From NCBI GenBank assembly GCA_950295325.1, contig OX485803.1, forward strand, positions 52,217,554 to 52,281,553: DNA of 64,000 nucleotides, read 5' to 3'. Made by a program: the position numbers and the translations under genes. The notes below the pieces were generated by a model. That model saw only the letters and a program-made list of their open reading frames with translations, did not search any database and was not told the DNA's origin. The DNA comes from Polytrichum commune (taxonomy: Eukaryota; Streptophyta; Polytrichopsida; Polytrichales; Polytrichaceae). Below, piece after piece: positions 1-63,900 of this stretch. Every line of letters starts with the position of its first letter. The stretch's first letter is position 1.

Positions 1-2035
1 TGAAAGTTTGACCTTAAAAAAATGTCACGTGTCATTGTGTGAGTGGTTGGAACAACTTGAAACATGACATGGGGTATTACTTTAAGCAGGGACGAGCCCA
101 ACCAAATTTGGCATTTATGGTTATTACTGGCTTGGGTTTCATGGCATCTATGTAAACTCATCCATTATGGATGAAGGCGTATTAATAAATAACAAGTCTC
201 ATACAAGGTGGGGGACGATTTGTTCACTAATATGTGCAGTTAGGTTGCCTTTGGGTTAACAATTAGTGTTGGTGACACTATATCGTGGTTAACAATTAGT
301 ATTGAGCAAGTCAATTAGAATGGCACCTAATCTTAGGTTCTTGGTGCAGAAAGGGTTTGACAAGTGAGTTTCATAGAGCAAGGTACAATAAACCCTCACT
401 TCTTTGTGGAATTTGTTTCACATCTGCACCTACTAAGTTGGAATAGTCAAAATCCAACCCCTATGGCTTTTCAGCCAATTCATCCCAATAAAACTCACTG
501 CACTAATTTGGGTTATTTGACATCGATTTTGAGATTTCTTTCACTACCAATAGAAAGTCCCCATATTCCACAACGATAATCAACGCTTTCATCCATCCCT
601 TTCCCCGGTTCACCTTCCCCCTCGACATGTGTTGTGAACATTCACCTTTGTTTTGTGTTCTTTGGGTTGAGCAGGAATCTGACAAGACATTCCATTCTTA
701 GCCTACTAATCAATCAAAATCACACTGAACAACTAACATAAACAAACTGCCTAGGAACACAACAAACTCCCGAGCATCGAGTCGTCATCGCATCTAGCGC
801 TACACTCGAGACAAAATGTCAACACCGGACTTGAAACCCCTATATGTAACCCCTTGTGAATCGAAAAACAACCTTCAGTTTCATTGATCATATCTTAATC
901 TCATGCTGTCAAAATTCTCTAATTCCTCAAAAGGTTCCGTGAATCTTGCCAAGCACGTGTTTACAATGTCGGTTATGAGTGCTAGCTGCTGCCTTATTTT
1001 ACATGACGAGCCTGCAAATTGCACGAATGTAGCCCAACAATTTTTGGGTTTCGTCACCCCCCCCCCCCCAACCTCTTGAAAAAGCGGCAAAAACACACCA
1101 TGTCCGCCCACTATTTACCCATTCTCGGTACCAGTGCAACATGTTCATCCACAATGGACATGGTCTCATCCCAATCCCATGACGTTTCTCATCTAGGTAG
1201 ACGGATGATGTGTGGTAACCAGCGTGAAATGGATGAATGGCCCACTTCATTCATTCGTCAGCCAAATTCCCTCCCCAGAGAGTTACCACGAGGGCGGAGT
1301 TTACCTCACAAGTGTCGGTGCGGAAAAGTGACAGCTGGCACCTTCGGCGTTGACCCGTGGAGCATTAAAGTTACTGTAATGGTTCTCAAGAATGGTCTGA
1401 AGAACGTCAGCCCCGAATTAGGTTAGCGCCATAAAAGGAGCTTGCGCACCGCATCTCCTCGTGTCGAGGGTGGGATTGCTAACTTACGTGGAGAGGGGAA
1501 AAGGTGAGGAGCGGTGGACATGCCAAGTGGATGCAAAAAATCCCTCCTTGCAAAGGGAAGGTGGCAGCATAGGAGGGCGTATACGGGGGGTTTTGCCACT
1601 CACGTTTTCACGGCAAGGTGATGCACCGACCGGGTATGATACCGTATGCGCTCAATTTCGTCTTTATTACATTCAGGATGGAGTTTCCACATGCGATTTG
1701 GAAGGTCTCAAGCAATGTTGGAGTAACACGTGGTAGAACCTGAGGGAAAAGTATGATGGGTTAGTCGGAATCGGTAGTGGAGAGCCCGAGTCTACGGCGG
1801 AATGTGTTGTAATAAGGAGTAAGCTACATTCTAGTAATTTTGCAATAAGTTGACGCTGGCCGCACCGGCACGTACCGATTGCAGAGGAATCCTGTTGGTG
1901 TTTAAGTAGCTGCAGGGTTAGACATTCTCATGCAATTCACAGTTGCTTCAATCAGTCACCGCAGCTCACTTTACGGAGGATCTAGTGTTGACCCGTGAAT
2001 CGGACGTGTTTCAGTTTGGAGTTTTGGTATTGACA
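1..2035. other. Intergenic stretch upstream of ERD7 gene 1
   Basis: I see no supported gene here. The short open frames have no recognisable protein motif and no paralogue in the window. The stretch contains a C13 homopolymer at 1057-1069 and a degenerate partial MITE near 240-335. The last few hundred bases before 2036 probably hold the promoter of the downstream gene, but I cannot place a TATA box or transcription start with confidence. Confidence 0.5.
240..335 (+). repeat. Degenerate end of the ~400-bp MITE family
   Basis: The block with AGTGTTGGTGACACTAT followed by a TATTGAGCAAGTCAATTAGA-type segment matches the terminal ~90 bases of the MITEs at 12262-12656 and, reverse complemented, 22336-22742. 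The opposite end is not recognisable here, so this is a partial or heavily diverged copy. Confidence 0.5.
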
Positions 2036-2075
2036 TCAGTTTTGCTGCGCGAGTGTCGGTGAGGTGAGGAGAGGT

Positions 2076-2710
2076 GCAGGGTTACAGTGCATCTGGTGAG
2101 TATTTATTCTTCGTCGTGAAATGCAGTTTTGGTTGATAATTTCTGCACGGTTGGGCATGTAGTGGGATATTAGCATTTTCCGTTTCAATCGTGGACCGCA
2201 AATTTTGCAGGGTTGTGCAGTTGGTGAATTAGTATTCATTGGATTGTTTGTGGTCGATTTCTGCACGGGTTGGGTTTTGGTGGGTTAGCACTCTGCGGTT
2301 CAAATTGTGGATGGTAAATTCTGTCGAGGTTGGGCTTCGGTGGGTGAGCATTCTGCAGAGGTTGAGTTTTGCTCGATAAAGTCTTCAGGGTTGGGCTACA
2401 TTTGGTCGGTTAGCATTCTTCGATTCAGTTTTGGTCGATTTCTGGAGGGTTGGGATTCGATGGGTTAGCATTCTTCACTTCAGTTTCGGTCGATAAATTT
2501 TGCAAAGTTGGGCGTCTGATGGGTTAGCATTTTTCGGTTAAGTTTTGGTCGATAAATTCTGTCAGGGTTGGGCTTATGGTCGGTGAGCATTCCGCGTGGG
2601 TCAAGATATGGTCGATAAATTTTGCAGGTTTGGGCTAAATCTGGTGGGTTAGCATTCTTCGGTTTAGTTTTGGCCAACAAAACTCTGCGGGGTTGGACCA
2701 CTTCGGACAC
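2076..2710 (+). repeat. ~10-unit diverged tandem repeat in the leader of ERD7 gene 1
   Basis: About ten copies of a unit of roughly 60-65 bases run up to the first coding exon. The recurring landmarks are GGTTGGGCTT, then GGTGGGTTAGCATTCTTCGG, then CAGTTTTGGTCGATAAATTT. Copies are diverged and vary in length. The array ends about 50 bases before the ATG, so it lies in the 5' leader or a leader intron. The + strand is GT-rich and C-poor. Confidence 0.8.
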
Positions 2711-2762
2711 AAACTAAGTGTTGCAGATTCAGTTTGAAACAGAATTCGGATCCGGTAACAAG

Positions 2763-5700
2763 ATGAACTGGTTGCGGAAGAACAACCCGTTCGATAGCGG
2801 CTCGGATGATCATTATCATCAACAGCAACAGCAACAGACAAGCCAATTCTACCCGAGCCAGTACGAGTACCAACCTCCGCAGTACGTGCCTAGCCGATCG
2901 ACATCCATGGCACCGCCCGCGAGATCCACGAGCTCCTCCGCCTTCGAGGCTCCACAGATCTTCCGCACATACTCGCAAAACTCCCGTCGGATGGAGGCAG
3001 CTCCACCCGCGTACGAGGGTGCGTACAGCTATCGATCCCCGAGCTCCTCACCCGAGGACTACCGTCAGCAGCAGCACCCGGACCACATGTTCCGCACCAC
3101 GTCCAACACCTACGACTTCAACCAGGTGACGTCCACGCACTTCGTGGAGCCGAGTGCGGGTGCCAACCAAGAGGTGGAGGCGTCGGAGGAGGTGTTGGTG
3201 AGGATCCCCGAGGCTATGGTGCACTTGATTGGCGACCAGGAGAGTCCGTTGCTGGCCAAGGGGGATTTCTCCGTGGTCAGGGTTGATCAGCAGGGGAATG
3301 GGATCGTGGTGTTTGTGCGAGTGGGTGAGCAGCTCCGTTGGCCCTTGACGAAGGATGAGCCGGCTGTGAAGTTGGATCGTACTCACTACTTCTTCACCAT
3401 CCGTGTACCGCGCCCGGTCGATGAGATGGACAGCGAGACGGCCAGACAGGTCAGTTTAGACAACATTCTCTACGTTATGAGTGTGTGGGTCTTTGTTTCG
3501 CCATAGGCCGTCTGATTATGAGATGAAAATCTCCTATGGTTTGTCAGGGCATTTGTTTCACATGAATTCAAGCGAAGCGCCACTTGGAGGTGAGCCCGTG
3601 CCCGCATGTGAGGTTGTGTGTTCAGCGAGCAGGAAAAATAACTCCCAAGTAGACTAGCCACCGCAGCATTTTAGATGCTTAAAATTGAACGCATCCGCCA
3701 AGTGGGTTAGTCGTCCCGACGCTTTTGAAAGGTGGTCCCAATGTGAGATGGATTTTTATATTTATTTGATTTAGTGGGGTTACTTGTAGCAGCGGAGGAA
3801 ATTGCTTCCTTAAGGTTGTGGAGCATGGGAGAATCAAGCCGGGCGAATCCGAAGTTATATGTTGGTAGTTGCATGTACACTGGGAATGAAAAATGTGTTC
3901 CAAGTAGATGTTGTCGCAACACTTATTTCTAAGATACTTGGGAATGGAGGGCACCAAGTACGCGAGGCATGACAGCATCTAGATGCTTCAGAAATAGAAG
4001 GTGGTCGTATGCACATGAATACGAAGGAGGATTTCTTTATGGAGGACTTCTCATTTGCGCTAGAGTGAAATCACGAGTTTGCGCTTGAGCCATGTGGCCG
4101 GGGAATACTTCACTTAAATTGCTTCTGTTCATCATATGGATCCCAAACGTCCTTTTCTCCATGTGCTAATTCTTTTTGGCATGGGAGAGGAGTGTTAGCG
4201 CTAATGGATCAATTGATGAATGGACCTCATTGATAATGCGGTGGGATGAAATTGGGAAGATTACTACTGACATGTTACGATTTTCGCGCATTGGTGTCAT
4301 GTACAGCCTGGTGGAGAGACAATGAGCTATGGAGTCACATTTCAAGTGTATGGGCACGAGAGGGAGCTGCAGGAGCTGGACAGAACGTTGGACACGTACG
4401 GGAATTTCTCGACGCCGACGGTGGTCCATGGCGACAGACAGAAAGATCAGCAATACAACGGCATGGGAGGTGGTCGCTCCGGCAAGATGGGTGGCATGAT
4501 TGTGCCTCAGGACGTGCTCTCCAGCGATGGGAAGCAGGTACCTCTCATAGCACCTACTTATAAATCTATTGACTAGCAGAGGGTTAGTTAGCCGATGGCT
4601 TTGGTCGTGGGATGTCTTAACATTGATTTTACTCAATCAAGCAATTAGGGATGACAAGATTTGGGCACTGACGCTATGGGCCTAATATTGTTTCTTGCAG
4701 GTGACGGAGGGAAATCAATCGGAGTTTTGGATGACAATGGCGCCGAATGTTGAAGACTACAACAGCTCCATAGCGAAGAGCATGGCAAAGGGCACTGGTC
4801 ACATCATCCGGGGAATATTCTGGGTGCGAGATTCAACCGTAGCTCGCCTTGAGAATGGCAGTCTGTACATGAAGGGCCGAATTAAGTCCAACTCTAAGCC
4901 CAGCCAGATCAGCCCAAGAACACTGCGCAATTTGAAGAGGTGAGTCCGGATGATCACGTTCATAGTGAACGGTATAATTGCATCATGTGACAGCAACCAA
5001 GAATGCGGGTAGATTAAGGGCACTATATGCGGGGATTGTGAATTTTGTGGTAGTTTTGGAATTTTTGAGAAAATTCAAATTATCTAATCAGTTGTTGGCT
5101 TTGCAGAGTGAGGAACATGTCTGTGGCGACAGAGAGTGTGGCGAAGAGTGTGCTTGAGGGTGTCGTGAAAACTGCAGGATTCTTCTCGGGCGCCATGATA
5201 AGATCGAAACCAGGGAAGAAGTTCTTCAAGCTCCTTCCTGGAGAAGTGGCTCTCGTCTCCCTCGATGCTTTTGGTATGTGCAATCCCAACACATTCTAGC
5301 AAACATCAATATAGGATGAAAATGCTGTAACAATGACAAGGATTGATATTCAGTAGTCGTTTGTTTAGCCTTCGGTGTTCATCACGATGTGGAATTTAAT
5401 TCTAGAGTTCTGCAAGAAACAAAGTGTAATGTTCCGACTGATCTTAAGCTTGAAATGCTAACATTGCAATTAATTTTTGCGAATTATTTGACAGCCAAGA
5501 TATTCGATGCGGTGGAGAAAGCGGGAACAGACATTATGCAGTCCACATCCATGTACACACAAGATGTTGTAACTCACAGGTGAAATTTTCTATTCATGTA
5601 ACAATTTGCTCTCTGTTCTATGTATGCTACCCCACAAAAATATTGATTTTTCTGGTCGACCGTACAAATTCGGTTGAATTTTCTCGTCAATTTCCTTGCT

Positions 5701-6038: not shown

Positions 6039-8171
6039 GTTGTGCATTTGCAAGAGATCAATTCTAGGGAAGAAGCTCAGGTAGTCCACACAATTACATT
6101 TGTTAGCAAATGTTGTAAGGATAGGTAATTTCATCATTAGATACTTGTACATATATAGAGCGTAGACTCTGATTAGAGGTAAGGCAGCAGTCATCTTAGG
6201 ACCTTGACGATGATTCTTTTTCAACACCGTCGCTTTGCAAAAGCTGTAGAATGATTTGGCAGTTGCATACTACCGGAAAATACAACACATTTTTCCATCT
6301 CTCTGCATGTCTAGCAACACTCGCTGAAATTGTTGGTGTTGACCAGTTACAAAATGTGCGTCCGTAACATCATGTAACAATTGCAATAGACATTATTTGT
6401 AGTCAATGGAAAAATGGAGAGGAATTCTTTATACTTTGAGATCCTGGTAGCCTCTAATGCCCATTGCAAAATTAATCTGACTTACATCGGCATGCTTACA
6501 TCTGACTACAGTTCTCAAAACTTGGTGCTGTCAATGTTTTGCAAGAGCAGCATTTTGCAACATCGACTCAATATCTGGTATTTTGTAGTCGTCAGATTAA
6601 GCGATTTTGCGAACATGTCCAATCCAGATTGACTGTGAAGAGATGCATTATCACCTGGATCTGACAAATCTTACCATGTCCTGACCACTATGTTTAGTAA
6701 CGGACATAACTTATGTGACCTTGCCATCGGCTTTAGGAGGCATTGCACACTAAAAGCATTTCCTTATTGACAACTTTTCCTTTGCACTAGAGTGCAATCA
6801 GAATCTCTAGTGCAATATTCAACGGTGTATATAAAACAGGGTCCACACCAACCAGAGGTTCATGTCATCAAGCCAATGAGAAAGTTCCTTTCTTCTCAAC
6901 CTTTGTACATGTGGTTACTATTCACAACATTTCAGGTAAATGAGTGCACATTAATATCTTGGGAAGAAAACTCACACAAATAGATGGTGAAGGGCGTAGA
7001 GGTAACTCACAATTTTGGGAGGAGAAAAATTAGTCAAAAATATTTCTAAACTAACTCGGATAAGTAGCCCAATATATGGTGTACCTTGTGCACGAATAAA
7101 ATATGATATAATTTCTTATATATGGAAGAAAAGAAAGTAACATTATTCATCCATGTTTACTCGTGACAAAAGATGAATTTCGGGTTGTGGGCAAGTAAGT
7201 ATAATTTAAACCAAAAGGCTTTGGACCCTCCTAGTGTGAACTTCTTTCATAGTAAACCCTCCTATTAACCCCCTCTTGGATTGGGCACTTGGGCTTCCAT
7301 GGCTTGGGCGGTCCTTGGAAGACTTGGGCCGCAATAGTAAAAAGGTAAAAAATTGAACTTGATAGTAAAAATTTACGGCAAACACACATATTGGGTAAAA
7401 CACAAGCAATGTGCTTATTGTGTTGGGGTTAAATGCATGTTACATTTTTACTACAATATGTAGCTTGCGTGGTGGCTTGCCTTGGATGTAGCAACTTTAT
7501 GTTGTGTTGTAGAACCATTCGCCCAGTTGCCCTGCCTCCCCAATGGCTAAAAATTATTGTACGGTGGTAAAGTTGGGCCATGTACCCAACCCTTCTGCAT
7601 GACTCTAAAGTGCACCGGCTTCGAAGCAACTTTTCAAAAAAAAAAAACCAAGAACACTTTAGCACTCATTTGAAGGCATGAGTATAAACTCATAGTTAAT
7701 TTTAGACACACATGGAATAATCAAGGAATTTAAATGATTACACAAATTATTAACCATCATGAAACGCAATAAGGTAGCCCAACTTGTTCCCCAAATTTAT
7801 CTTCAAAGTGTGCATTAATTTTCATGAATTGTCCGTCTGCACTTTAAGATTGTAAGATTACTTAGCCTTGGGCATAAGTTCTTATGCTTAGAATAGGTTA
7901 TAATTATTAACCATGTAAGTCTCATTATACTTTCATCTATATATTCACATGACTAAATCTCATCACCTTGCACGGGGATCAACCATACAAACGCACATAT
8001 TGGGAGTTTGTCATTATTCCGCATGATATATGTGGAAAAAACTCAACATTGGAGATGAATAAAGTTATGTGTGGCAATGGCAATGGGACGGAAGATGATT
8101 GAAATGGAAGAAAATAAAATGGTAGCTAGGTTTGAAGGTGGACCTGAATCACCCAAAAAAAAAACACTCAA
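6039..8171. other. Intergenic between ERD7 copies 1 and 2
   Basis: This holds the 3' untranslated region of copy 1 followed by AT-rich DNA. Open frames are short, unconserved and without motifs. I see no RNA gene and no duplicated fragment of the flanking ERD7 genes. Confidence 0.5.
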
Positions 8172-8173
8172 GT

Positions 8174-8549
8174 AAGGGCTTGGTTCACATGGGTCCCAAG
8201 TCCTACATCCCCAGTCACTTGAGGTTAATCTCTGCAATCTTGGTTGTTGAGAGCACTAAAGTTGGGACTTGGCACTTCACACAGGTCCCAAGTCCTAAGT
8301 CCCAAGTATAACATGAATGCTTACATGGCAACACTCTTTAGAGCTGAAGTTGGGATTTTAGTGTTAGGAGTTGAGTTGAGCAAAAAAACTAGACCCAACT
8401 CTCAACACAAGTACCGTATTTGTTTTGCACAAAATAATCAAGATCCTACCTTATTGAATATAAACCATATTTTAATGGTGTCTTGACGCTCAAAAGTTAG
8501 GACTTTGCCTCCATGTTTGGGACTTGGGACCCCATGTGAACCAGCCCTT
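8174..8549. mobile_element. MITE-like element with ~30-bp terminal inverted repeats
   Basis: The left end reads AAGGGCTTGGTTCACATGGG followed by TCCCAAGTCC. The right end reads GGACTTGGGACCCCATGTGA then ACCAGCCCTT, its near-perfect reverse complement. The interior repeats the CCCAAGTCC motif several times and has no coding potential. The target duplication could not be resolved. It lies about 0.5 kb upstream of ERD7 copy 2. Confidence 0.7.
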
Positions 8550-9013: not shown

Positions 9014-12000
9014 ATGGCTCCACGGAATCGACGAGCTGCCACTGAGCGCGGATCAGCAGCAGCGCCCATGGTGGGGGCGTCGGAGGAGGTGTTGGTGAGT
9101 ATCCCCGGGGCAATGGTACACTTGATTAACGACCAGGAATCGCCGTTTCTGTCGTCCGGGGATTTCTCCGTGGTCAGGGTACACCAGCAGGGGAATGGGA
9201 TCGTGGCGTTTGTGCGAGTGGGGGAGCAGCTCCGGTGGCCCTTGACGAAGGATGAGCCGGCGGTGAAGTTGGATAGTACTCACTACTTCTTCACCATCCG
9301 CGTCCCGTGCCAGGTCGATAGGATGGACAGCGAGACGGCCAGAGAGGTCATTTCAGACAACATTCTCTACGTTGTGAGTGTTTGGGTCTTGGTGTTAGCC
9401 ATAGGGCGTCCACATATAAGATGGCAGTCTCGTATGGTTTGTCAGTGCATTTGTTTCACGTGGAGGAAGCCAAGCGCCACTTGGAGGTGAGCCTGAACCC
9501 GCACATGGGTAGTCAAGTGTGTAGCGAGCAGGACCAAACATGTCTCCCAAGTAGGTTAGCAACTGCAGCACTTTAGCATTTTAGATGCTTAGAATGGCAG
9601 GCATCCGCCAAGTGGGTTAGTCCTCATAACACTTACCTATCTGTTGAGAGGTCCCAAAGTGAAAGATGTTACTAGAAGCGGTGAAAAGAACGTCGCTCTA
9701 TTAATTGTCGGTCCATTTAAGCATGTGAAACCCTGGGAGAAGCTGCCACTTGGTGAACTTGAACTGGCGTGTGGATAATTGCATGTATAGCGAGAAGGAA
9801 AAATAAACCTGTAGGTTAGCCATCGCAAACACTCCGATGCCTCGGCGGTTGGGAATTAATGGCAGGCAAGTATCCAGTAGGGTAGCAGTCACAACTTACT
9901 AGATGCTCGAGAAATGTTGGTCAGATGGGGGCACACATACATGAAAGGAGCCTCTTGCAGGCGGACTTCTCCTTCGTACTGAAGTGCAGTTCCAAGTTTG
10001 CACTTGAGCCATGTGAACGGGGAATACTTCACTTTGTCTTGTCATGATGTTCATCCTTTGCGTGTTTGCTAAATATTTTGCCATGGGAGAGGGTGACTAG
10101 TGCTAGGTTAGATAAACAGGTCCGTTTGATACTGTAGTGAAATAAGATTAGGAAAGTTGCTACTGTCATCTGACAATTCTTGCGCATTGTTTCATGTACA
10201 GCCTGGTGGCGAGACTTTGAGCTATGGAGTCACATTTCAAGTGTATGGGCACGAGAGCGAGCTGCGGAAGCTCGATGAACTGCTGCGTGGATACAGCGAC
10301 TTCTCAACGCCAGCCTTGATGCACGGGGACAAACAAAGAGAGCAATTCAATGGCATGCAGGGAGCTGGTGCTGGATCCAGCAAGATGCAAGGCGGCATGG
10401 CTGTTCCCCAGGAAATGGTTTCTAGTGATGGGAAACAGGTACCTATACTAATAATAATTACTTCCAGAATTCTGATGGATGTAGTCAGATTATTCTGTAG
10501 TTGCAATATCGGGACTGAGGTAGAAATTATGGGGTGCTACCTTGTCGCAGTGGTACAGTTTTGTATTTAGGGTTGCGACATATTCACTGGCAAAACTGTT
10601 CGAATGGATTTGGAAATGTGATGACAGGTATGATATTTTAACTTGCGATCTTGATGCATTTCAGGTGACGGAGGGAAACCAAGCGGAGTTCTGGAGGACA
10701 ATGGCGCCGAATGTTGATGACTACAACAGCTCCATAGCCAAGGGCATGGCAAAGGGTACTGGCCATGTCATCCGGGGGATTTTCTGGGTGAGGGATTCAA
10801 CTGTAGCACGCCTTGAGAATGGCAGCATCTACGTGAAGGGCCGGGTAAAGCGTAACCCCAAACCCAGTCAAATCAGCCCACGCACATTGCGAAATTTAAA
10901 GAGGTGAGCCCTGCTGACACTTCTATGATGCCTCGGCCGTTTCAATCTTGTCCTCCAGAAAATACTTGAAGCTCACAGATGAATGATTCTGTTTCATCGC
11001 TCAGTAGGGTTGAATTTCAGAGATGTCAAGTGCTGCAGAGGTAGCCACCCCATCCCATTCTGCCTGCCTGCCTGCCTGCCGTTGGATTGCCGCCTCTTGC
11101 AACCTTCTAATATCCTAACCTCCCTACTCATTAGTTGCTATAGAAAAACCCAAACAGGTAGGTCGGTCAAACGTTAAGATTCCTTGGAAGAACTTCGAAA
11201 CCTAATGGCCTGTATGACTTGGCGTTTGCTTGGCCTTTGAAAACCCTACTCGCACTCTACCTGAATAGTGATCGTCATGTGCACCAGCACATGTATCAAG
11301 TGAAGGAGTTAATTGGAGACAAATACAACATGATTGCTAACGAATCGCGGCTTATTGGTTGCACAGGGTGAGGAACATGTCCATGGCCACAGAGAATTTG
11401 GCAAAGAGTGTACTTGCAGGTGTCGTGAAGACGGCTGACCTTGTTTCGGGTTCCATAATGAAATCAAAACCTGGCAAGAAGTTCTTCAGCATTGTGCCAG
11501 GAGAAGTAGCTCTCGTCTCCCTAGATGCTTTTGGTATGTTTTCTCAGCACTTTGTGCATGGTGAACTAGTACAGAGGATGACAATCAAGAGGATGCTACA
11601 GAAAGTTTGTCTTTGTAATATGTCACGGGTTTTTTTTGAATCCACGAACTTTTCTAACTTTCAATACCAAATTTTTGTGCTGCACTGCCTATGTAAAATT
11701 GACCTTCCCAATTCCTCTGAATTTTGTGACAGCCAAAGTCATGGATGCAGTGGAGAGAGCAGGAACAGATGTACTGCAGTCCACATCCAACTGCACACAA
11801 GATTTCGTTACCCATAGGTACGAGTTTCCATTTTCCAGTGTTACTAGAACTTCTCACTTTGCTCTTTGCTGGATGAGAAAGAAAAAAGAAAAAACAAGGT
11901 ACATGGACATGTGATGTCTGTTCACCACCTACCCCATGCCCGTATGGACACTCTTTGTTGCATGTGATATGCCAAGTGCAGTTGCGGTAACACTTGCAAC

Positions 12001-17546: not shown

Positions 17547-17554
17547 AATCTCCC

Positions 17555-18052
17555 CACGGGTAGGTCACTCTGAGGCATTTTTGTGCACCACGGGCGGCTA
17601 GGGGTTTTTTGTTTTGGGGCTATTTACCTTCAAGGGCTGAATTAAAGCCTCCCTATAATTACTTAAATTTAAAAAATGGCCCATTTGTTTGCACCCTTTC
17701 ATTACTTATATTGTCCAAGTCACTGCAATTTTTTGTACTCTATATTCCTTTTAAGCCATTTTTGGACATACGGAAATCCCAATTATCATCCATCCCCGTG
17801 AGTCCTAAACCCATTTACATATCATACTAAACATACCTTCTAGGATCCTTATCTTTAGCCCCTATATTAATTTTACAAAAAAATAATGGCCCACATTTTA
17901 TGTCCATCTAACTTATTTATAATGGGATTGTCTACATTTAATGGCCCCTTCATTATTTGGAATTCCTTTAGAATTTTTATTTCAAATGATTTTAATCCTC
18001 TCTATATTATGCCGCACGTCGTTTTTAATATGCACTAAGTGATCTACCCGTG
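17555..18052. mobile_element. 498-bp non-autonomous TIR element with exact 8-bp target duplication
   Basis: The element begins CACGGGTAGGTCACTCTGAG and ends with the inverted form TGCACTAAGTGATCTACCCG plus TG. Inside each end is a GGGCGGC or GCCGCACGTCG block that extends the inverted similarity to over 40 bases. It is flanked on both sides by AATCTCCC (17547-17554 and 18053-18060), an exact 8-bp target duplication. Its left ~300 and right ~250 bases align with the two ends of the larger copy at 43660-45158, but the internal ORF is missing, so it is an internal-deletion derivative. An 8-bp duplication is typical of hAT elements; other superfamilies are possible. Confidence 0.9.
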
Positions 18053-18060
18053 AATCTCCC

Positions 18061-29832: not shown

Positions 29833-30077
29833 CTAAAGAGAGCGCCTCAGTATTGTCCAATTGGCTTGGATCTGTCCCAAATTGTTGTATCTCCGGAGAC
29901 CAAGTTAAGTACACTAGGGTGACCGAACTCTAGATGATTATCATGTAGAGATTTATGGGCTAATATTTATTGATCGATTGATTGACCGTGGTGAATGTCA
30001 TTACGGAGTGGTAGAGATGGTTCACATGAGTCTCACATCCTTACTTGTTCCTGTGTTGTTCTAGGTGTTTCAACTCG

Positions 30078-33000
30078 ATGGGCTGGTCCGAATGTAAAAA
30101 TGTAGTCAGTGGTGATATATGTGGGTGTCAGCAGTTTGAAGCTTTATCGAGGAATCCATTTGCCTGTGGATCTTGTGACTGCCACAAGCATTTCCATGTT
30201 AGGCCTGAAGACGACGAGTTTACACAGAATGGCAGTTGTTCAAAGATCCGGAATGTTAGCAAGTGTGGATGTCAAAAGTTTCTGGCCTCTTCAAAAGATC
30301 CCGCACAATGCTCTTGCTGTTCACATCCCCGATTTCTTCATTTGAAAGACCAACTGGAGGAAGAGAGAGCCCGAGCCCTGAAGAGGGTGAAACTTGATAT
30401 CACAGTGCAGTCCATTTCAAATGCAGAAGATGAGCAATCCTGTATCACGAAAACTAGGTGCGTGATAAGTCAGGCTTTCAGCTCTTCTATACATTTCTTT
30501 CACGAGAATTTTATATGAAGTTTGCAAACATCAGGATTGGCTGAAATTGATCTAAATCTTTTTATGGAGTTTTGATTATGTGTTGTTGGTTCTAAGCAGA
30601 TCATCAAAGCCTCCTAACCTGGAAATTGTTGCAGCAAAGGCTTTCACTGGCACCAAGGCGGAGAGCTACAAATGCAAAATTAGAGATCATTTGAACACCA
30701 CCATGACTAGATTTCAACTCAATGAAGATCAGGTGAGATTTAGCTTGCAAATTCTCTATACCTCATAGATGGCTGTCTAATAAGAAGTTGAAAAGGTACT
30801 GCAAATGGACATCTCGTAGCGGCCCAGATGGCCAAGATTCAATGGCTTACCTAGACTAAATATCTGATTCAGCGTAGCCCACAGTATTCATTATCGACCC
30901 AAATGAATTGTCTTGCACTAACTAGGTGGCAACTAAAGAGGGTGTCATACGACACTAGCTGTTACATGACGAATCATGCAGACCACTCTAATCAAGGTGA
31001 CACACCAATTTTAATGCCACATTCAGGTGTTTAGAGTAGTGTTGCTGAGGTTTTTATGGCAGTCCATTGCATAGGCTTCAGTCACTGATAAACACATTGC
31101 TGTGATGTCCTCAGGCCTGTGTTCTCCTTAATGTAGAAAGGTGGTTTTCAAGTTATGGAATGATGCCGGTACATCTGATGCCGGTACATCTGATGCCGGA
31201 ACTGTGCCTTGTTCATGGAACATTTGGCAGTGGTAAAAGTAAGTCCTGAAATTTTATGTGGTTAATAAAGGAACCATGTCAGGGCTGTACAGAGTTTGAT
31301 CATTTATTAGTACATTACTTCCTTCATGGTTCCCTTTTCCCTGATCCCTTAAAAGTTCAAGAATTCTCATGAGTCTTTTCAGTTTCTCATGTAGTGGACC
31401 GGTGATTCCTTTCATGTTTCCTTGAACCATGAACAATATAATGAAAGTTCTGGGTGCATTACCAAGTATATCACATTCCACCCTCCTCTGGCCTTCACAG
31501 TTTATCATAATGTTAATGTTTTTCAAATGAATCTTATTCAAGTGCAATCTGTTGACACAAGTGTAATGGTGCCATAATGTGGGTCTTCATGTTTGATTTG
31601 TTAGGATCTTCACATTTCTTGACCTTTATGTAAAATGTTACTTATAACAGTCTACCTTCTTCGACGTTCAAAACTCCACTTAAAACAGAAGATTTCTTGG
31701 ACCCCTATGGAACTAACATGACTATGTTGTACTGGCAGGTTACCTCCTAGTCATCTTGGTTATATTTGTAGTAGACATTCTGCAGGTTGGCTAGGCTGAC
31801 TCAACTTGTTCATTATACTCTTAAATTAGTCACCCTTTAATTTAATGGGACTTTTGCTCGGGAGTTGGTTGTTTTGGATGCAACACTTTCCATTTTTGGT
31901 AAGTTTGTGGTGCATGCTTGGAGACGGTGCGGAGGTTTGAATGAAGGACATTCTATATCAATTCATTGAGGGCCAAACTCATTTTGGCATGCCAAGAGAT
32001 GCTAAAATGTGTTTGGCCCTCAATGAACCAATATAAATGTTCTTCGTTCAAACCTCCACACCATCTCCAAGCATGCACCAAAAACTTTCTGAACATGGAA
32101 AGTGTTATATGCAAAACAACTAACTCCCGACCAAAAGTCTAGTTGAATTAACAGATAACTCTTTTGTGTTCTAATCTTCAGCACCTGCATATTCTCATTC
32201 ACATCTCCTGGGTATCTAATGTGGTTCGAATGCCTTTTGTAGATCCTCAATGATACAACAACAAGGATTCTTATTTCCGCAGCAACGGACAGTGGAGTTG
32301 ACAGGTTTGCAAGTTAACAAAACTTGACCCCTGCCTATGTTTCCCTGCTGATGAGGCTTGACATTTCTTTTGTTGTTGTTAGTGAGGATATTTTGTGTCG
32401 AGTCATTCTTGGAAATGAATTGGTACTTGTGGTGGTACTCTTCTCAATCTGATTCTATACAATTGCATCAATGAGAATCAGAAGTTCATTTTTCTGGCTC
32501 AAAGCAGGATTCTGAAAGATCTGTTAGCACATGGGTTTTATGAATTCATGCGTGTAGGGAGCTATGAGAAGATTGCTGAGCAAGTACTACGGTAAGCTAT
32601 ATACCTGGGAAATTGCTTAATGTCAAAGCCTGTTGTTGTTGTTGAAATTCTATGTATACCAGCTTCTGGACACATTGGTGTTGTGGAACAATTATGTAAT
32701 GTATATTTGAAACGAATTTGTGTGAGGAGGGAATTCCTCTCTGCTCACTATCCTAAGAGGTTTCTGCAGAGGATTTCATCAGGTTCATGAAAACCTTGCA
32801 TCAATGTCGTCTGTCACAAATGACTACGTCAATGTAGTCACTGTAGTGAAAAGGTGGACCTCCCACTGTGCCGAATTCCATCTATAATCTGCCAGTCTGG
32901 CCCATGAAAAGGTGATGGTTGAGTTTCTTTAGTCATAAATGGTTCAAATAGCTTAGAAGTTTTTGAGTAGAACCCACAAGGACTTGATTTTTGTCTGTAG

Positions 33001-43000: not shown

Positions 43001-43651
43001 CTATCCACATTATAACTCATAGTTATGTACATGTATTGAGGACCTTTTTAATAATATACAACATTTGTACTTATATGGTAGTGTCACTTTTTTAGGTATT
43101 GGTTGTGCTTGTGGTGTGTTTTTTTAACACGCTTGAAGCTAAAATTGTATTAAACTAAAAAATAAAAGTAAAACAAAAAAAAACTCCAATTAGGGTTTAA
43201 TTTGCTAGGAGGGTTTATAGGATGCGTAGAAAGTTTAGAATCGTTGGTTGGAGTATAGGGATCCGGTTGAATTAATGTACCATCTATCAAATATGGAGAT
43301 TTGCTTATGTTGGTATCAAAAAGGAACCAACAAGAAGTCAATATACAATCTTATTAATCATTTGATGGTAGACTTAGAAACAATAATTGCATTAGCTTGT
43401 ATAATATATATTACATTCTTAGATGCTTATGAATTACATCCAGGGGACGCAAAAGTCTTCAACAACTTTATTAATGAATCCTAAGGTTTTGCATTATACA
43501 TATGATAGGGGTTGATTGCTATTCAAAAGTATATTTCCATAGATATGTACTAATTATATATGAAAGTTTTTATTTTTTATTTGTAATGTATACATGTTGT
43601 CACTTGTATTTTTTTCCATTGAAATTGTACATGTATTGCTTTATTTTACAA
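40030..43651. other. Downstream of the helicase: no gene seen
   Basis: A telomere-like AAACCCTAAACCCT tract lies at about 40037-40053, just after the stop codon. The segment 40740-41090 holds repeated and inverted AGTGTGGG/CCCACACT motifs and is described separately. The rest is AT-rich with no motif-bearing frame. Confidence 0.45.
40740..41090. repeat. Repeat with multiple inverted GTGTGGGC motifs
   Basis: CAGTGTGGGCCACATTAGTT followed closely by CAACCCACACTAAAATTCC, then TTAGTGTGGGTGGTTAC, then CTAGTGTGGCCCATGC and CCCACCCACACTAGTAGGA. These can pair in several ways, as in a nested or rearranged MITE. Boundaries not established. Confidence 0.4.
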
Positions 43652-43659
43652 CAAAACTT

Positions 43660-45158
43660 CACGGGGAGGTCACTCAGTAGGATTTTTGTATACCACGTGC
43701 GGCGGAGGGGTATTTGTTTAGGGGCTATTTACCTCCAAGGCACGAATTAAAAGCTCCCTATAATTACATAATATTCTAAAATGGCCTATTTTTTTGTACC
43801 CTACCATTACTTATAATGCCCATGTCATTGAAATTTTTGTAGTCTATATTCCTTTTAATTTAAAAAACTGAATTTAAGAATGTATGCAATGCAAAAGTGA
43901 TGGGAAAAGCATGGCAACAAAAAAATATAAAAATTACGTACCATTGCAAAAACCAAGTACAAAAACTTAAAGTGAAAATACAAAAAGAAGACTTAGGATG
44001 GAACACAACATGATTGAGTGTGTGTTTACAAACACAACAAGATTGTGTGTGTGTTCACAAACACAACACCCGCTCCATAAAAATCCTTTATTCAAAATCA
44101 CTTTACATGCTAGTGAAGACCAAAACCATATAGTGTGAAACACTTTAAGCTTGGTCATGAATCTTATATAGTTCGTTCTGTCACAAACTTGGACAGTTGC
44201 TCTGAATCATTCCTATCAAGAGTGTACACCTCATTTGTAGAATTGTAGCTCATGGTTACCGTAGATATAATGCAATCTACATCAATCCATTTGCTATCCG
44301 TGTGATCATACTTAAATTTGTTACGGCCTAGATATTTTCTATAATATTGCAACATTACTTCGATGTGGGGATTATTAGGATTACTCCTCCATGATTCCTC
44401 CGTTCGAGCAAGGAGGTCAACCGCTTGCCTAAGTACTCCAAATTGTTTCCCATTGCGCCGCCGCATAGCCTGCACCCTACCCACCCACCATGAACTAGAA
44501 TCTACTCCGTTCAATATGTTAGTAGCATTTCCAGCTTTAACATCAGTCATTGAACGTCCCCTTTTTCGTTTGGCAGCGGATTTTACAGTTGACAATAGCA
44601 TTGTTGTGCTCCGTTGGACAAAATGCACCCCACAATCAGATCCTATAGATAACAAACTTGATCCACATGAAGATCTTGCTTGGAGACAATTATCATGGTT
44701 GTTGAAATGAATACTATGTTTAATTCTTGCTAATCTATCTTTGGATAGAAAAACATTATCATTGAGTTGCGAGACAAACATTGACTTGTAAATGGAATGC
44801 CCATCAACTTCTACGGTTGGCAAAAAATTTCCGGTTCTCTATACTGAGGCTTCCAATTTCATCCATTTTTGGGTGAATGATGAGTAATTTTTCATCCATC
44901 CCTCGTGAGGCATGTGTACGAAATTGATTCTACTAAACATACATCCTAAGATCCTTATTTTCAGCCCCTATATTATTTTTACTAAAAGGGAATGGCCCAT
45001 ATTTTATACCTATCTATTTTACTTGTAATGGGCTTATGTACTTTTAATGGACCCTTCATTATTTGGAATTCTTTTATAATTTTTATGTCAAATGATTTTA
45101 ATCCTCCCTATATTATGCCGCACGTCGTTTTTAAAATGCACTAAGTGACCTCCCCGTG
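43660..45158. mobile_element. 1499-bp TIR element with 8-bp target duplication and internal ORF
   Basis: It begins CACGGGGAGGTCACTCAGTA and ends CACTAAGTGACCTCCCCGTG, inverted similarity continuing inward to the GTGCGGC/GCCGCACG blocks. CAAAACTT flanks both sides exactly (43652-43659 and 45159-45166). The outer ~205 and ~280 bases align with the 498-bp copy at 17555-18052, so both belong to one family. Between them lies about 1 kb that the short copy lacks, carrying an ORF on the minus strand. The 8-bp duplication suggests a hAT-like transposition mechanism. No transposase catalytic domain is recognisable, so this copy is non-autonomous or carries a different kind of protein. Confidence 0.9.
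44164..44850 (-). pseudogene. Element-borne ORF with WWVGRVQ motif, probably frameshifted at its 5' end
   Basis: An open frame of about 219 residues (44164-44823) starts without an ATG; an in-frame stop lies six codons further upstream. Its N-terminal part reads PTVEVDGHSIYKS and FLSKDRLARIKHSIHFNN. The centre has a Lys/Arg-rich stretch (KSAAKRKRGRS) that could be a nuclear signal, then SSWWVGRVQAMRRRNGKQ. The C-terminal part has HIEVMLQYYRKYLGRNKFKY and WIDVDCIISTVTMSYN. An ATG-led frame (ATG about 44871-44873) enters the same point one base out of phase across a T6 run, so a single-base indel may have broken the gene. I do not recognise a named domain. I have an impression, not verified, that similar proteins occur in other eukaryotic transposons. 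Confidence 0.6.
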
Positions 45159-45166
45159 CAAAACTT

Positions 45167-47574
45167 TTATATAGAGGGTTTTTTGAGTACATTATGAACA
45201 CATGTGATTCTTGGTTTTAATGGAAGGTACATCCCTCAGGTGGTCGTCGAAAGATGATAATTTCCTTTTGATTTCGTATTGGTTGTGTACATATCGTAAG
45301 AGAGGCAAAAACATCTTAATCCTTAAACATCAAATTCTTACCCTCAAGAATTGAGAGTCAATGGATTTTAGAGAGTTTTCTCTTTATTAATAAGTGGTGA
45401 GCAATGAGGATTATATATATATATATATATATATGGACTTTGTTGGTGAGATGACCATTCCTATTAGCACCAACAAAATTTAAAAGTCAAAATTTGAGAT
45501 AGTACTTTAACTGAATATAGGAGTTGCTCTAAAAGGACAAGGGTTTGACATTCTCATGACAATTATAAAAAAAGAAAGGGAACTTGGGTATTGCAAGTGA
45601 CATTCTTCATATGTACTTCAAAGAATACTCCCCAAGACTTTGGGTTGACAATGGACATAGCTAGTCCTCGAACATCTTTAGTGCAATGCCACAACCTTGC
45701 CAAAGCAACCCATAATACCCTTCAAAGGAATGGAACCCAACAATCACCTTGGGTGAATTGACCTAATAATAACCATACTCAATGTTTTGCATTAATGTTC
45801 TTGTGTCCAATGTTTAGTGTTTAAATGTTTTAGAGTCAAGTAGAAGACCAAGGGATACAATTATTTTCTTTTGTGAAGAATTGGGGATGCTTGGAAATGT
45901 GAAGATATATATGTGTACATGGTAATTTAGTATTTCATGTATGCATGTGTAGGATGGGGGAGGGGGGTATAAATCCTCATCCTTCTTATACCAACCACAT
46001 ATTCTTGAAGGAGTGACATGCACCATTATATAATTTAAATAAAATAAAATAAGTAGTGTGTTTGGAGTGTGAATGGCAGTAAATGCCAGAGTGGCTTTCC
46101 TTATGGGAAGAATTACTCCATTGGCCAAAAGGGGGGGGGGCGTGGAAATCTTCTGTTTGTCTTTGGTGGCTAGCAACATGTGTCCATGTTAGGCATACAT
46201 GTGCAAGGAGGAGGACGTTTCCTAGTTGAGAAGGTTGATGTGCATAATGTGAGAAATTTACATATGTGGGGGAGGTAGGGGGAAAGACATTGCTACTAGT
46301 TTGAGGTCTCCATTGTTGACTGCGCATGGTGCTATTTATTACCATCCATTTATGTGAGATAGAGGCGCTTAATTTATATAGAGTGGTGTCAGTTGCCAAT
46401 AATTAGTTGCGGCGAACTATTTATTGTGGTAACTTGGGTTTGTGTCACTTGGGTTTTTGAAAACATAGTACTTATTTCTGTGAGGAAAAAATTGAGAGAC
46501 AATACTTAAAAGGTGGTGGTTATATTAGTGTTTGGTGCTTCAAAAATGCCTTAGAGGATGAGAGTTGCAGCTTGGGCCCAAGGGCATGAGCGTGCACATG
46601 GCGCATTATAATATCCTGAGGCTTCGGTTATCATTGCGGTTGGGGGTGTTGACATTGATATCACGTTGTTGGTCAATTTGAGGAGGTTCATTAAGGGCCA
46701 TTGCATTGCAGGATTGTGTGCCGTTGAGAGGAATGGTGCATTGACCCATAAGCATTTCCAAAATGGTGCTCAAGGGTAACTTTAGCAGTTTGCGTATGTT
46801 AAACAAGAAGATCAAGGTAGCTTTGGAATGGCATGTTGATCCGCCAACGGGTCATGTTGTTCTTGCAAGAAGTTGAGAGACGAGGGCCTCCACACTTTGG
46901 GGGGGATGGTTGGGTATTGCACACTGGTAACATGCAAGATCATTTTGATTTGCAAATTACAACGTGTCCATGGATGATACGAATGAGGGAAAGATGGAGT
47001 ACGCAAAGTTTGGCAAGGTGGGTTTGAAAAATTATGTTAGCTTGTTTCACAACAACGTTTTGCAACGTGCTCATCAGCGGGCATGATTCCGCGTGAAGAA
47101 GCATTTGGGTGTTAGTCTTCCTGGGACCCTTTTTCCACATGTGCAAGAGCGGGTAGTTCTAGTTAAATCCTACTTGGGTCATTCCGTTGCATCAATCCGT
47201 GGGCATGGAAGGCATCTTCGATTCGGAAGATGATGATGTGTCCACATGACATCAAGATGGAGGATATTTCTAATGTTTTTTTTCGGTACTATCATAGAAA
47301 TGTCAAACATGTGTTACTTTAATGCGCAACCATAGGTTGCATTAGACCATAGGATGGAGCAAAGCGACCTCAACATGGCACTCCATGACGATATCGAAGT
47401 GGCTATGGAGGGGCCGGGGATGCCAGAGATGGCCCTTAATTAGAGGCCTCCAAGAAACAATGGTTTGCTGAAGATGCATGTGGGCGTTGGCTTTGCAAAG
47501 GACGATGTACGTACCCGTTCATGGTGTTGGAGTGCGTTGGATTGCGGTTGTGGCCGGCACTTATAGTAGCTTAG
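45167..47574. other. Intergenic, no gene seen
   Basis: It contains an AT dinucleotide run near 45413-45434 and a G10 run at 46131-46140. The part at 46550-47480 is GT-rich with several open frames on both strands, but no motif was recognised; it may be eroded transposon DNA. Confidence 0.4.
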
Positions 47575-60976: not shown

Positions 60977-63900
60977 TGAAAATGATGAGATTTTGTGGAT
61001 CCGTCACTTTGACTTTCTTTTGACTTATGTTATGGCGTGATTTGCAAGTTCTCGAAGTAGAAGTGACTCTTTGTGTATGATGTTTTAATCAGCAATTTCA
61101 TAGGCTCACAAATTTAACTTCTCGCGCCACTTGTACACACAGAAGATGTTGGTAGTCATAACATTATTCAAATTCATAACATTGTTATGTGGGATTGACA
61201 ATATTCTACAAAATATTCCTCACATTCAGTCTGAATAATGTTATGGTCGTGCCACCCACATATTATATCATGACTATATCAATAACCCTCATTCGTCAAG
61301 GTGTATTGGTTTTTTTTATAAATATAACAACATTCATAACATTTTCAATGTGGTGTATTAATACTAGTAGCTTTTTTTCTTTTAATACTAAATTATATAT
61401 ATGATGTCATAGTTGGTCTCAGTGTCTGGGGAGGATTTTGGGCAGAATCAGTTGAGATCCTAGTGTTTGCAAGTCCGACTAGTTACATGTTGGCATCTTT
61501 TAATTTTACTTTACTAATTTGAGGTATATTCTATAAATTCCTCTAAATTGATGGGTAATTTTCCTAGAGTTTTGAACTTGAACCAGTTATTTCTCAAACT
61601 CATCTAGTTCATCTGTAACTAGTGGTCGGTTCTCCCCATTCACGAGTTGGTCTTCAAGAATAAAGGACACATAAATCCATTGTAATCTTTACAAGGAGTG
61701 GAACGTCCATACTAAGTGTGCTCACTATAAGTGCAATGCCATTGATATCTCTACTATAGACAACAAAAATCTTGTGTGGACTTGGAAGTGCCCATAACAA
61801 CGCCATCTACTTTAAATTAAGTTCACCCTTTGTTGCCACTAAAAGTTCCATGGGTTTTCTCTGAAAAAGAGAAGTCATTGTGGAGCCATGTCATGTCTTC
61901 ATCCTCTTCCCCCCAGTGCCCCCACCCCCCACCACTTAGCATGAAATCTTTTCTATGTTCTAAGAATAAATATGTTTGGATTTTTTTCAATATTAAGTAG
62001 AACAATGCTCTAAAGTGATTTTAAAGCTCGAAGAAGGTTACTCATATTGGAATAGGGAAAAAAGAAAAGAAAAGAGTCTTGCTCACTAGTGTGGCCCATT
62101 GTAAGGATCAACCACCTTTAGTGGTGTAGGCAACACCCTAAAACCAACACATGCTTCAAAAATGGCATTCAAATTCGTTGTGAAGGACACTCATCATCCA
62201 GTCAACGGCTTTAATAACCTCTACAATAGTCATATGAACTCCAACATTGAATTCAAATCCTCACATATATGTATTCTAAATGTATGTATGATTGTTTCCA
62301 TTTTTAGTGAGATCCCTCATTCATCCTGTCATATCCAAATTAGATAATACACAATATTTACTAGCTACCCAAACTTAAGAACTACAACTTTTTGACTGTT
62401 GGACCTTCTCAAATTTTGTTGAAACGAAGAGAATCTTGACAACGGAGTTGGTTTCCATATAAAAGTGGTTGATTTCCACATACAAGTGGTTGATCATAAA
62501 ATATGTTGGTGATAGTGGGATGAATTGACCTCAACTTCAAGGATGGAAAGAAAGTTCCTAGTTCATTGGAATACACTTGGTGGCCGTAAAGGGTTAATAA
62601 CTTCATAAATCAACATCCAAAAATGCAAAGTGTGGTATATTCTAATAACTCTTAACTCTTATAAATTTTGCATTATAACTCCAATTAGGCAATCTTAGTG
62701 GTTTGAGTTTTTTTTATCTAGGTGAGGCATTTCCCAATCTGGTTCAACGACCAAAATTGTACTCCGTATGTAAAATTGGCAGTGCCCATGATAGGGCCAC
62801 ATACCTGAAGTTAAGCTAACAACTTCAGTGAAACCAACGTGTGGTAGATCCTTATGACCTTTGACCTCATGTAGCTCTTGCAACGCAACTTCCATCCTCA
62901 AACTTGAAATGACAATCTTTGTGATTCATGATTTCTAACAGGGATGAGACTATTCTTGATCCTACCCAACACCCAAAATTCTTTGTGGAGTTGGAAGTGC
63001 CTACAATAGGACCACATACTTTAAGTTAGATTAACAACTTTCAAATATCAACCTTAGGTGAAATGAAAATGTGGCAAATACTTCTTATGTTGCAATAAAA
63101 TAAAATGAAATTGATTTTAAAGTCTGTGAAACCAAAAGGTGATGTACAACTAACTACTTAAGGTAGACATGTCTTATTCAAACACCTACTCTTGGGTGCA
63201 AAATGGTTAAATCTTCTCCTAAAACAAACAGCTCTTGTATTCTTCCAAGAAAGACTACTATGGCTCATTGCTCAAGCCAAAAATCGACGCGCAATACCTG
63301 CTCATTGCTCAACGTTAACCACCAAAGAAGTTCGCATATGCTCTTTGAACATTTATCACAAATTGAGGTTCAGTCCCTTTAATATCATTCTTCTGGCATT
63401 GAAAATGTACAAAATATGCTAATTGATTGAATTTGGTCCTTGGATCAATTGCACATCAAAAGAGGCGAAACCTCCTGGAAGTAATAACCATACTGGGCTC
63501 GTCTACCTTAATTATTTGACTTTGCTTGCACTGCTCCCCGGATTTCCAAAGTCAGAGATGTTGATCAAGGACATGCATCAACAGTGCTGCCTGCACATCG
63601 TCGGGTTATAAGTTGCTTCAACTGTAAGTAATTACTGCTGGATAGATTCGGTTTCAGGAGAAAACAAGCAGACATGCAAACTACTAGAGTCACTACCGAC
63701 CTACTTGTGGAAAGAGGAGGATGACGCGATAATCGTAGGCCTGATAATGGGGATCAGGTTGACAGTTGACCACCTGAGTGACTTGAGTGCTGAAGGAACT
63801 ACATACTAATAAGAAAAGATTCACTCCACATTCATTGTTCGGGATTCACAGAATTCATGTGTGGCCAATCGAAGCTAAAGTTACCTTTCAACTTGTTAAC

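Follow-up and report, generated by a model that had tools for sequence, protein, structure and literature searches.

The window, by which we mean the whole stretch of 64,000 nucleotides analysed here (Polytrichum commune, contig OX485803.1, positions 52,217,554 to 52,281,553 of the forward strand), contains a 1499-bp element at 43660-45158 that is flanked on both sides by exact copies of the 8-bp sequence CAAAACTT (left copy at 43652-43659, right copy at 45159-45166). The two termini are inverted repeats of each other over about 44 bp (79.5% identity), starting CACGGGGAGGTCACT. In the orientation of the transposase-like protein discussed below, the 3' terminal repeat occupies 43660-43703 (element positions 1456-1499, pairing with positions 42-1), while the pairing of the inverted ends places the 5' terminal repeat at 45117-45158. 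The 3' non-coding part includes a tandem pair of a 29-bp unit (44002-44059). A short sister element of 498 bp is found on the minus strand at 17555-18052, between two copies of AATCTCCC (17547-17554 and 18053-18060). The preliminary description of this DNA had reported two copies of one family of terminal inverted repeats (TIRs) with perfect 8-bp target duplications; this is confirmed here, and the coordinates of the window element proved exact.

The window element carries an open frame on the minus strand (44164-44838) that spans 224 codons from stop to stop, or 219 amino acids counted from a TTG. The ~220-residue protein attributed earlier to the longer copy is thereby borne out. The frame contains, in this order, PTVEVDGHSIYKS, SSWWVGRVQAMRRR and WIDVDCII, and corresponds to the C-terminal ~220 residues of a much longer transposase-like protein. 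It is separated from an upstream in-frame ATG by a TAG at 44839-44841 on the minus strand (MKLEASV*RTGNF, the asterisk being the TAG). Many sibling short copies are open at this position; in the window copy, the next in-frame ATG after the TAG falls inside the C-terminal domain. No Pfam match was obtained with the window frame, and structure prediction of the frame alone gave a pLDDT of 35.5.

The surroundings of the insertion preserve the site as it was before the element arrived. Sequence alignment identified a relic of a related element on the plus strand at 43082-43656, which is 76% identical to the 3' end of another related element, L047, and alignment of the joined flanks traced this relic further at 45167-45241 on the same strand. 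When the flanks were joined with a single copy of the duplication, the alignment ran unbroken through the junction to L047 positions 7133-7557, and the window element has thus landed in an older related element. Within the relic, at 43284-43472, lies a further, decayed C-terminal domain that belongs to the relic itself.

Parent element and internal deletion

The closest full copy in the same genome (L013, C5:40490851-40499346) is 8496 bp long, has the same ends and is flanked by the 8-bp duplication AAAGGTGC. The window element consists of two blocks of this element, both in minus-strand orientation: parent positions 1-312 (98.4% identical) at 44847-45158, and parent positions 7306-8496 (97.5% identical) at 43660-44849. 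Counted along the window element, the blocks cover positions 1-312 and 310-1499 and have about 3 bp in common at the junction (44847-44849). Being made up of these two parent blocks, the window element is internally deleted by about 7 kb. The short sister matches positions 1-307 (94.8%) and 9503-9703 (92.5%) of a second long element, L014, which measures 9703 bp.

The search of the genome for longer copies holding a transposase, which had been proposed earlier, was carried out on the 408-Mb assembly, nearly all of which is contained in seven contigs of 42-78 Mb, and it settled where the short protein comes from. WRKY genes, with 34 matches in this genome, mark the host as a plant. The window frame gave at least 153 matches, a lower bound since only the best candidates were scored. 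Nine among the matches listed sit in open frames of at least 1490 codons; seven complete frames read from the first ATG encode 1490-1509 amino acids, whose final ~220 residues are the part to which the window frame aligns. L013 itself has a frame change near residue 320, so that its own frame is not intact; unbroken frames are found in other lineages. The suggestion that the short protein is not a transposase catalytic domain is supported by this arrangement, as the frame sits at the end of ~1500-residue frames that contain a DDE-like core. The companion suggestion of a cargo or accessory protein is not, since what the frame encodes is the C-terminal domain of the long protein that belongs to the element itself.

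A further 14 among the matches listed have 78-83% identity, begin at about query residue 41 and lie in 199-codon open frames, forming a second class of short copies. Their common start near residue 41 suggests either an independent deletion derivative or an exon boundary.

In our reading, the parent is an 8.5-kb element with one gene for a transposase-like protein of about 1500 residues. About 7 kb was lost between positions 312 and 7306, with some 3 bp common to both sides of the joint; what remained was both ends together with the final ~220 codons and the 3' non-coding part. The resulting 1.5-kb product multiplied, presumably because a parent enzyme recognises its ends and works on them in trans. 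We are highly confident that the window feature is non-autonomous and derives by internal deletion from a cut-and-paste transposon, with an 8.5-kb parent that carries the ~1500-residue transposase-like gene. Like plant MITEs and other internally deleted DNA transposons, the window class is short and numerous, has intact ends and lacks a complete transposase, and it is probably mobilised in trans as MITEs are. In contrast to MITEs, which are given as typically 50-800 bp long (PMC12550479), its members measure 1.5 kb, and the deletion happens to leave a readable piece of the gene.

Copies, ends and target sites across the genome

Exact 8-bp duplications were present at all 24 of the short-copy loci that had both ends in reach, out of 28 examined; at the remaining loci (L006, L027, L031 and L033) no partner end could be found. 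When flanks from different loci were paired as a control, 7 of 8 matching positions were reached in none of 552 left-right pairings; at loci with several end pairs the pair with the best flank match was taken, a choice that does not enter the control. The 8-bp duplications and shared ends of the window family are beyond chance, and the earlier view of a TIR transposon with certain limits is well supported. The 24 paired copies of the 1.5-kb class range from 1471 to 1779 bp, making this a numerous and homogeneous class.

Seven of the 12 long-frame loci were resolved at both ends (L013, L014, L015, L016, L020, L045 and L046). All seven have exact 8-bp duplications, with total lengths of 5.8-9.7 kb. 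For L012, L017, L018, L019 and L047, both ends were not found within the stretches examined. The ends of L016 are only moderately alike and were caught by the pattern but missed by a stricter scan. The motif CACGGGKAGRTCACTYAG, which is the strict form of the ends in the window's lineage and its sister, was counted 1348 times in the genome (682 + 666 occurrences), compared with 0 + 0 for the reversed control. The sequence C-N-C-G-G-G is common to the ends across lineages. Target preference is slight over 32 duplications, with 0.25 and 0.20 bits at positions 2 and 8.

Two of the long elements, L045 and L046, lie on two contigs and share 99.1% identity in two blocks of 4.2 and 1.5 kb. Their near-identity, combined with different target duplications, points to recent movement. 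L019 and L020, also on different contigs, are 99.5% identical across 7.6 kb, a sign of recent spread. Another short repeat family occurs within these elements: a repeat of about 200 bp at 61419-61637 of the window is found with 80-81% identity in the 5' non-coding parts of L013 (element positions 2307-2505) and L020 (1914-2132), and also near L017.

Sequence change in short and long copies

Substitutions were compared over codons 5-224 in 27 short copies that had been selected mainly for open frames. Private changes gave a dN/dS ratio of 0.82 and pooled pairs one of 1.14, and the ratio reached 1.77 for changes present in at least two copies. Selecting copies for open frames biases dN/dS downward and not upward, so the near-neutral result stands. 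In-frame stops occur in 4 of the 27 copies and, among the matches listed, in 18 of 42 near-full-length matches with at least 91% identity. Among the long elements, selection was measurable in the L013/L014 pair only, as synonymous sites are mostly saturated in other pairs. Here, dN/dS was 0.07 for the core, 0.18 for the C-terminal part, 0.16 for the middle and 0.18 for the linker, and 0.49 for the partly covered finger region. Judged by these ratios, the domain is retained in the full protein, whereas the short frame resembles a passenger.

These results bear on two readings in which the short frame would have a role of its own. If the ~220-residue protein were an independent gene carried by the element, its presence as a lone C-terminal piece with an open frame in many 1.5-kb copies would be expected, and stops are indeed absent across codons 5-224 in 23 of the 27 copies, a set chosen mainly for open frames. 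However, in the long copies the piece is continuous with the ~1500-residue frame and keeps its place even at about 28% identity, change in the short copies is near neutral, and in the window copy a TAG precedes the frame, with no in-frame ATG until inside the domain. Given the continuity with the long frame, the near-neutral drift and the deletion structure, we rejected the cargo gene, which we regard as extremely improbable. The truncated tail might instead act as a regulator that titrates the ends or forms inactive oligomers with the full enzyme. Internally deleted P elements make repressors, and by analogy the in-frame ATG and open frame of many sibling copies, together with the large and homogeneous 1.5-kb class, would fit such a role. 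Yet none of the three dN/dS values (private, pooled and shared) shows constraint, the upstream reading frame differs between copies, and the window copy is cut off by its TAG, which makes a regulatory short form very unlikely in our judgement.

Affiliation of the long protein

Eight sequences of the core, a part of about 635 residues in the ~1500-residue protein, show a fixed spacing of D, 118 residues, D and then DxxH, with 241 residues from the second D to the E. Across 10 core sequences, with identity to the first falling to 32% in the most distant, D, D, DxxH and DxxE do not vary, and this includes the D three residues before the E. The signature D, D, C/DxxH, E is described for the group of hAT, P, MuDR, Kolobok and Dada (PMC3706591, PMC9587614). 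We read the core as that of a P-like DDE transposase because of its motif order and the element structure, and not because of detected homology. Searches of Pfam-A (E up to 10), NCBIfam and PDB sequences with single sequences and three alignments gave no meaningful match to the core, and neither Pfam-A at that threshold nor the PDB-chain sequence searches revealed homology to P/THAP9 or RNase H transposases. Named matches of the long proteins were at chance level, for instance Thioredoxin_4 in two of nine members (best E 0.038). The P-type RNase H model PF21787 found nothing in the genome in a scan that was run without a responding positive control. Scans of viral contigs and prokaryote genomes, where plants are not expected, with the alignments A1 and A2 returned no relatives. 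The view of a little-described family is supported; Pfam-A, NCBIfam and PDB searches give it no name. A match of the open frame to a known transposase domain had been set out beforehand as the result that would speak against the original reading; the frame does match a transposase-like protein, but one that is unnamed in the libraries searched.

The N-terminal segments of the long proteins show, by eye, Cys/His patterns of zinc-finger type. No THAP model matched in the scanned proteins, which have Cys/His-rich segments there instead; THAP is said to be animal-only (PMC7776569). The diverged L045 differs in its N-terminal frame, which is Cys-rich with repeated CGCQxF, but retains the C-terminal domain; this domain stays in position across elements that share no more than about 28% identity. 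For this C-terminal domain, with its WWVGRVQ and WIDxxxVI motifs, no known match was found in the libraries searched. The Cys/His-rich segments would probably read the element ends; that the WWVGRVQ domain may serve the transposase, by contacting end DNA, target DNA or chromatin, is our guess. The window also contains, at 30030-30518 on the plus strand, a Cys-rich open frame with repeated CGCQxF and CHKHxH. By eye this frame resembles the L045 N-terminal frame (1813-3054), and it gave a weak match to the ZF-HD dimerisation model with an E of 0.006, below the model's cut-off.

The P superfamily (Drosophila P and THAP9-type elements) offers the closest set of likenesses. P elements make 8-bp duplications and have many internally deleted copies (PMC8230255, PMC7776569), and both features, with the duplications exact and the deleted copies abundant, recur here. 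The corresponding residues of the fly element are reported as D230, D303, D339 and E531, with D528 three residues before E531 (PMC8230255, PMC7776569); the moss proteins show the same succession of D, D, D(2)H and E, a long insertion separating the second D from the E (227 residues between them in the fly, 241 here) and an acidic residue three before the E (D528 in the fly, the invariant D here). In contrast, 118 residues separate the two Ds here and 72 in the fly, the elements measure 5.8-9.7 kb with a ~1500-residue protein compared with 2.9 kb for the P element, their ends begin CNCGGG, and the ~220-residue C-terminal domain with WWVGRVQ and WIDxxxVI sets them apart. From these motifs we infer that the long protein is probably a DDE transposase with an RNase H fold, P-like in its D, D, DxxH, DxxE signature. 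Members of the P superfamily combine this fold with a GTP-binding insertion domain.

An element of the hAT superfamily with atypical ends would also account for 8-bp duplications and a C/DxxH motif, which hAT elements have in common with ours (PMC3706591, PMC9587614). Structure-only plant pipelines would probably call hAT from the duplications, and hAT is among the five main classes used by a plant MITE survey (PMC12550479). However, no hAT model was found by Pfam-A scan in nine aligned members of the family or in the diverged L045 and L047, whereas at least 150 places in this genome match the Pfam model of the hAT dimerisation domain (the best 150 of 1060 candidates were scored). As hAT elements are so readily found in the same genome by the Pfam model, plain hAT membership is unlikely. 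The CNCGGG ends, which we take to misfit the end rule of hAT elements, were also counted against it. The KDZ elements are another group to be considered. They have a Cys-rich N-terminal part, as does L045. Zisupton and Dileera, which belong to KDZ together with Kyakuja, make 8-bp duplications (PMC12730594), as the moss elements do. No match to the KDZ model PF18758 was obtained in the scanned proteins, and the model was found nowhere in the genome, where its positive control was equally silent; we consider a KDZ affiliation very unlikely.

Kolobok was rejected because of its TTAA duplications and 5'-RR ends (PMC9587614), compared with varied 8-bp duplications and ends starting with C here, and Dada because of its 6-7-bp duplications in small RNA genes (PMC3706591), compared with varied 8-bp duplications here. 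The literature was also searched for the element itself. Novosib elements have 8-bp duplications. They are listed among the DDD/E superfamilies (PMC9587614). A description of our element was not found among open-licence papers on moss or plant P elements, Zisupton, Novosib, end sequences and novel superfamilies; a name for the family may exist in Repbase. Uncharacterised animal proteins presumably share similar core motifs, so that the family may extend beyond plants.

As a deletion derivative, the window feature is ordinary; the more interesting finding is its parent family, apparently an unnamed P-like lineage in a plant. In a recent plant survey, short TIR elements were sorted into five main classes by duplications and ends (PMC12550479). 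A P-like lineage with 8-bp duplications and without a domain model would therefore probably be filed as hAT or left unnamed. A wider reading, which we put forward tentatively and do not favour over narrower ones, is that these elements represent an as yet unnamed land-plant transposase superfamily. Such a superfamily would combine P-like chemistry and an 8-bp duplication with interchangeable zinc-finger or Cys-rich N-terminal modules replacing THAP, conserved CNCGGG ends and a unique WWVGRVQ C-terminal domain that remains joined to the core when identity has dropped to about 28%. If confirmed, this lineage would show that a land plant carries a P-related transposase lacking THAP. It would also supply, in L045 and L046, a pair of nearly identical copies whose target duplications differ, which points to recent movement.
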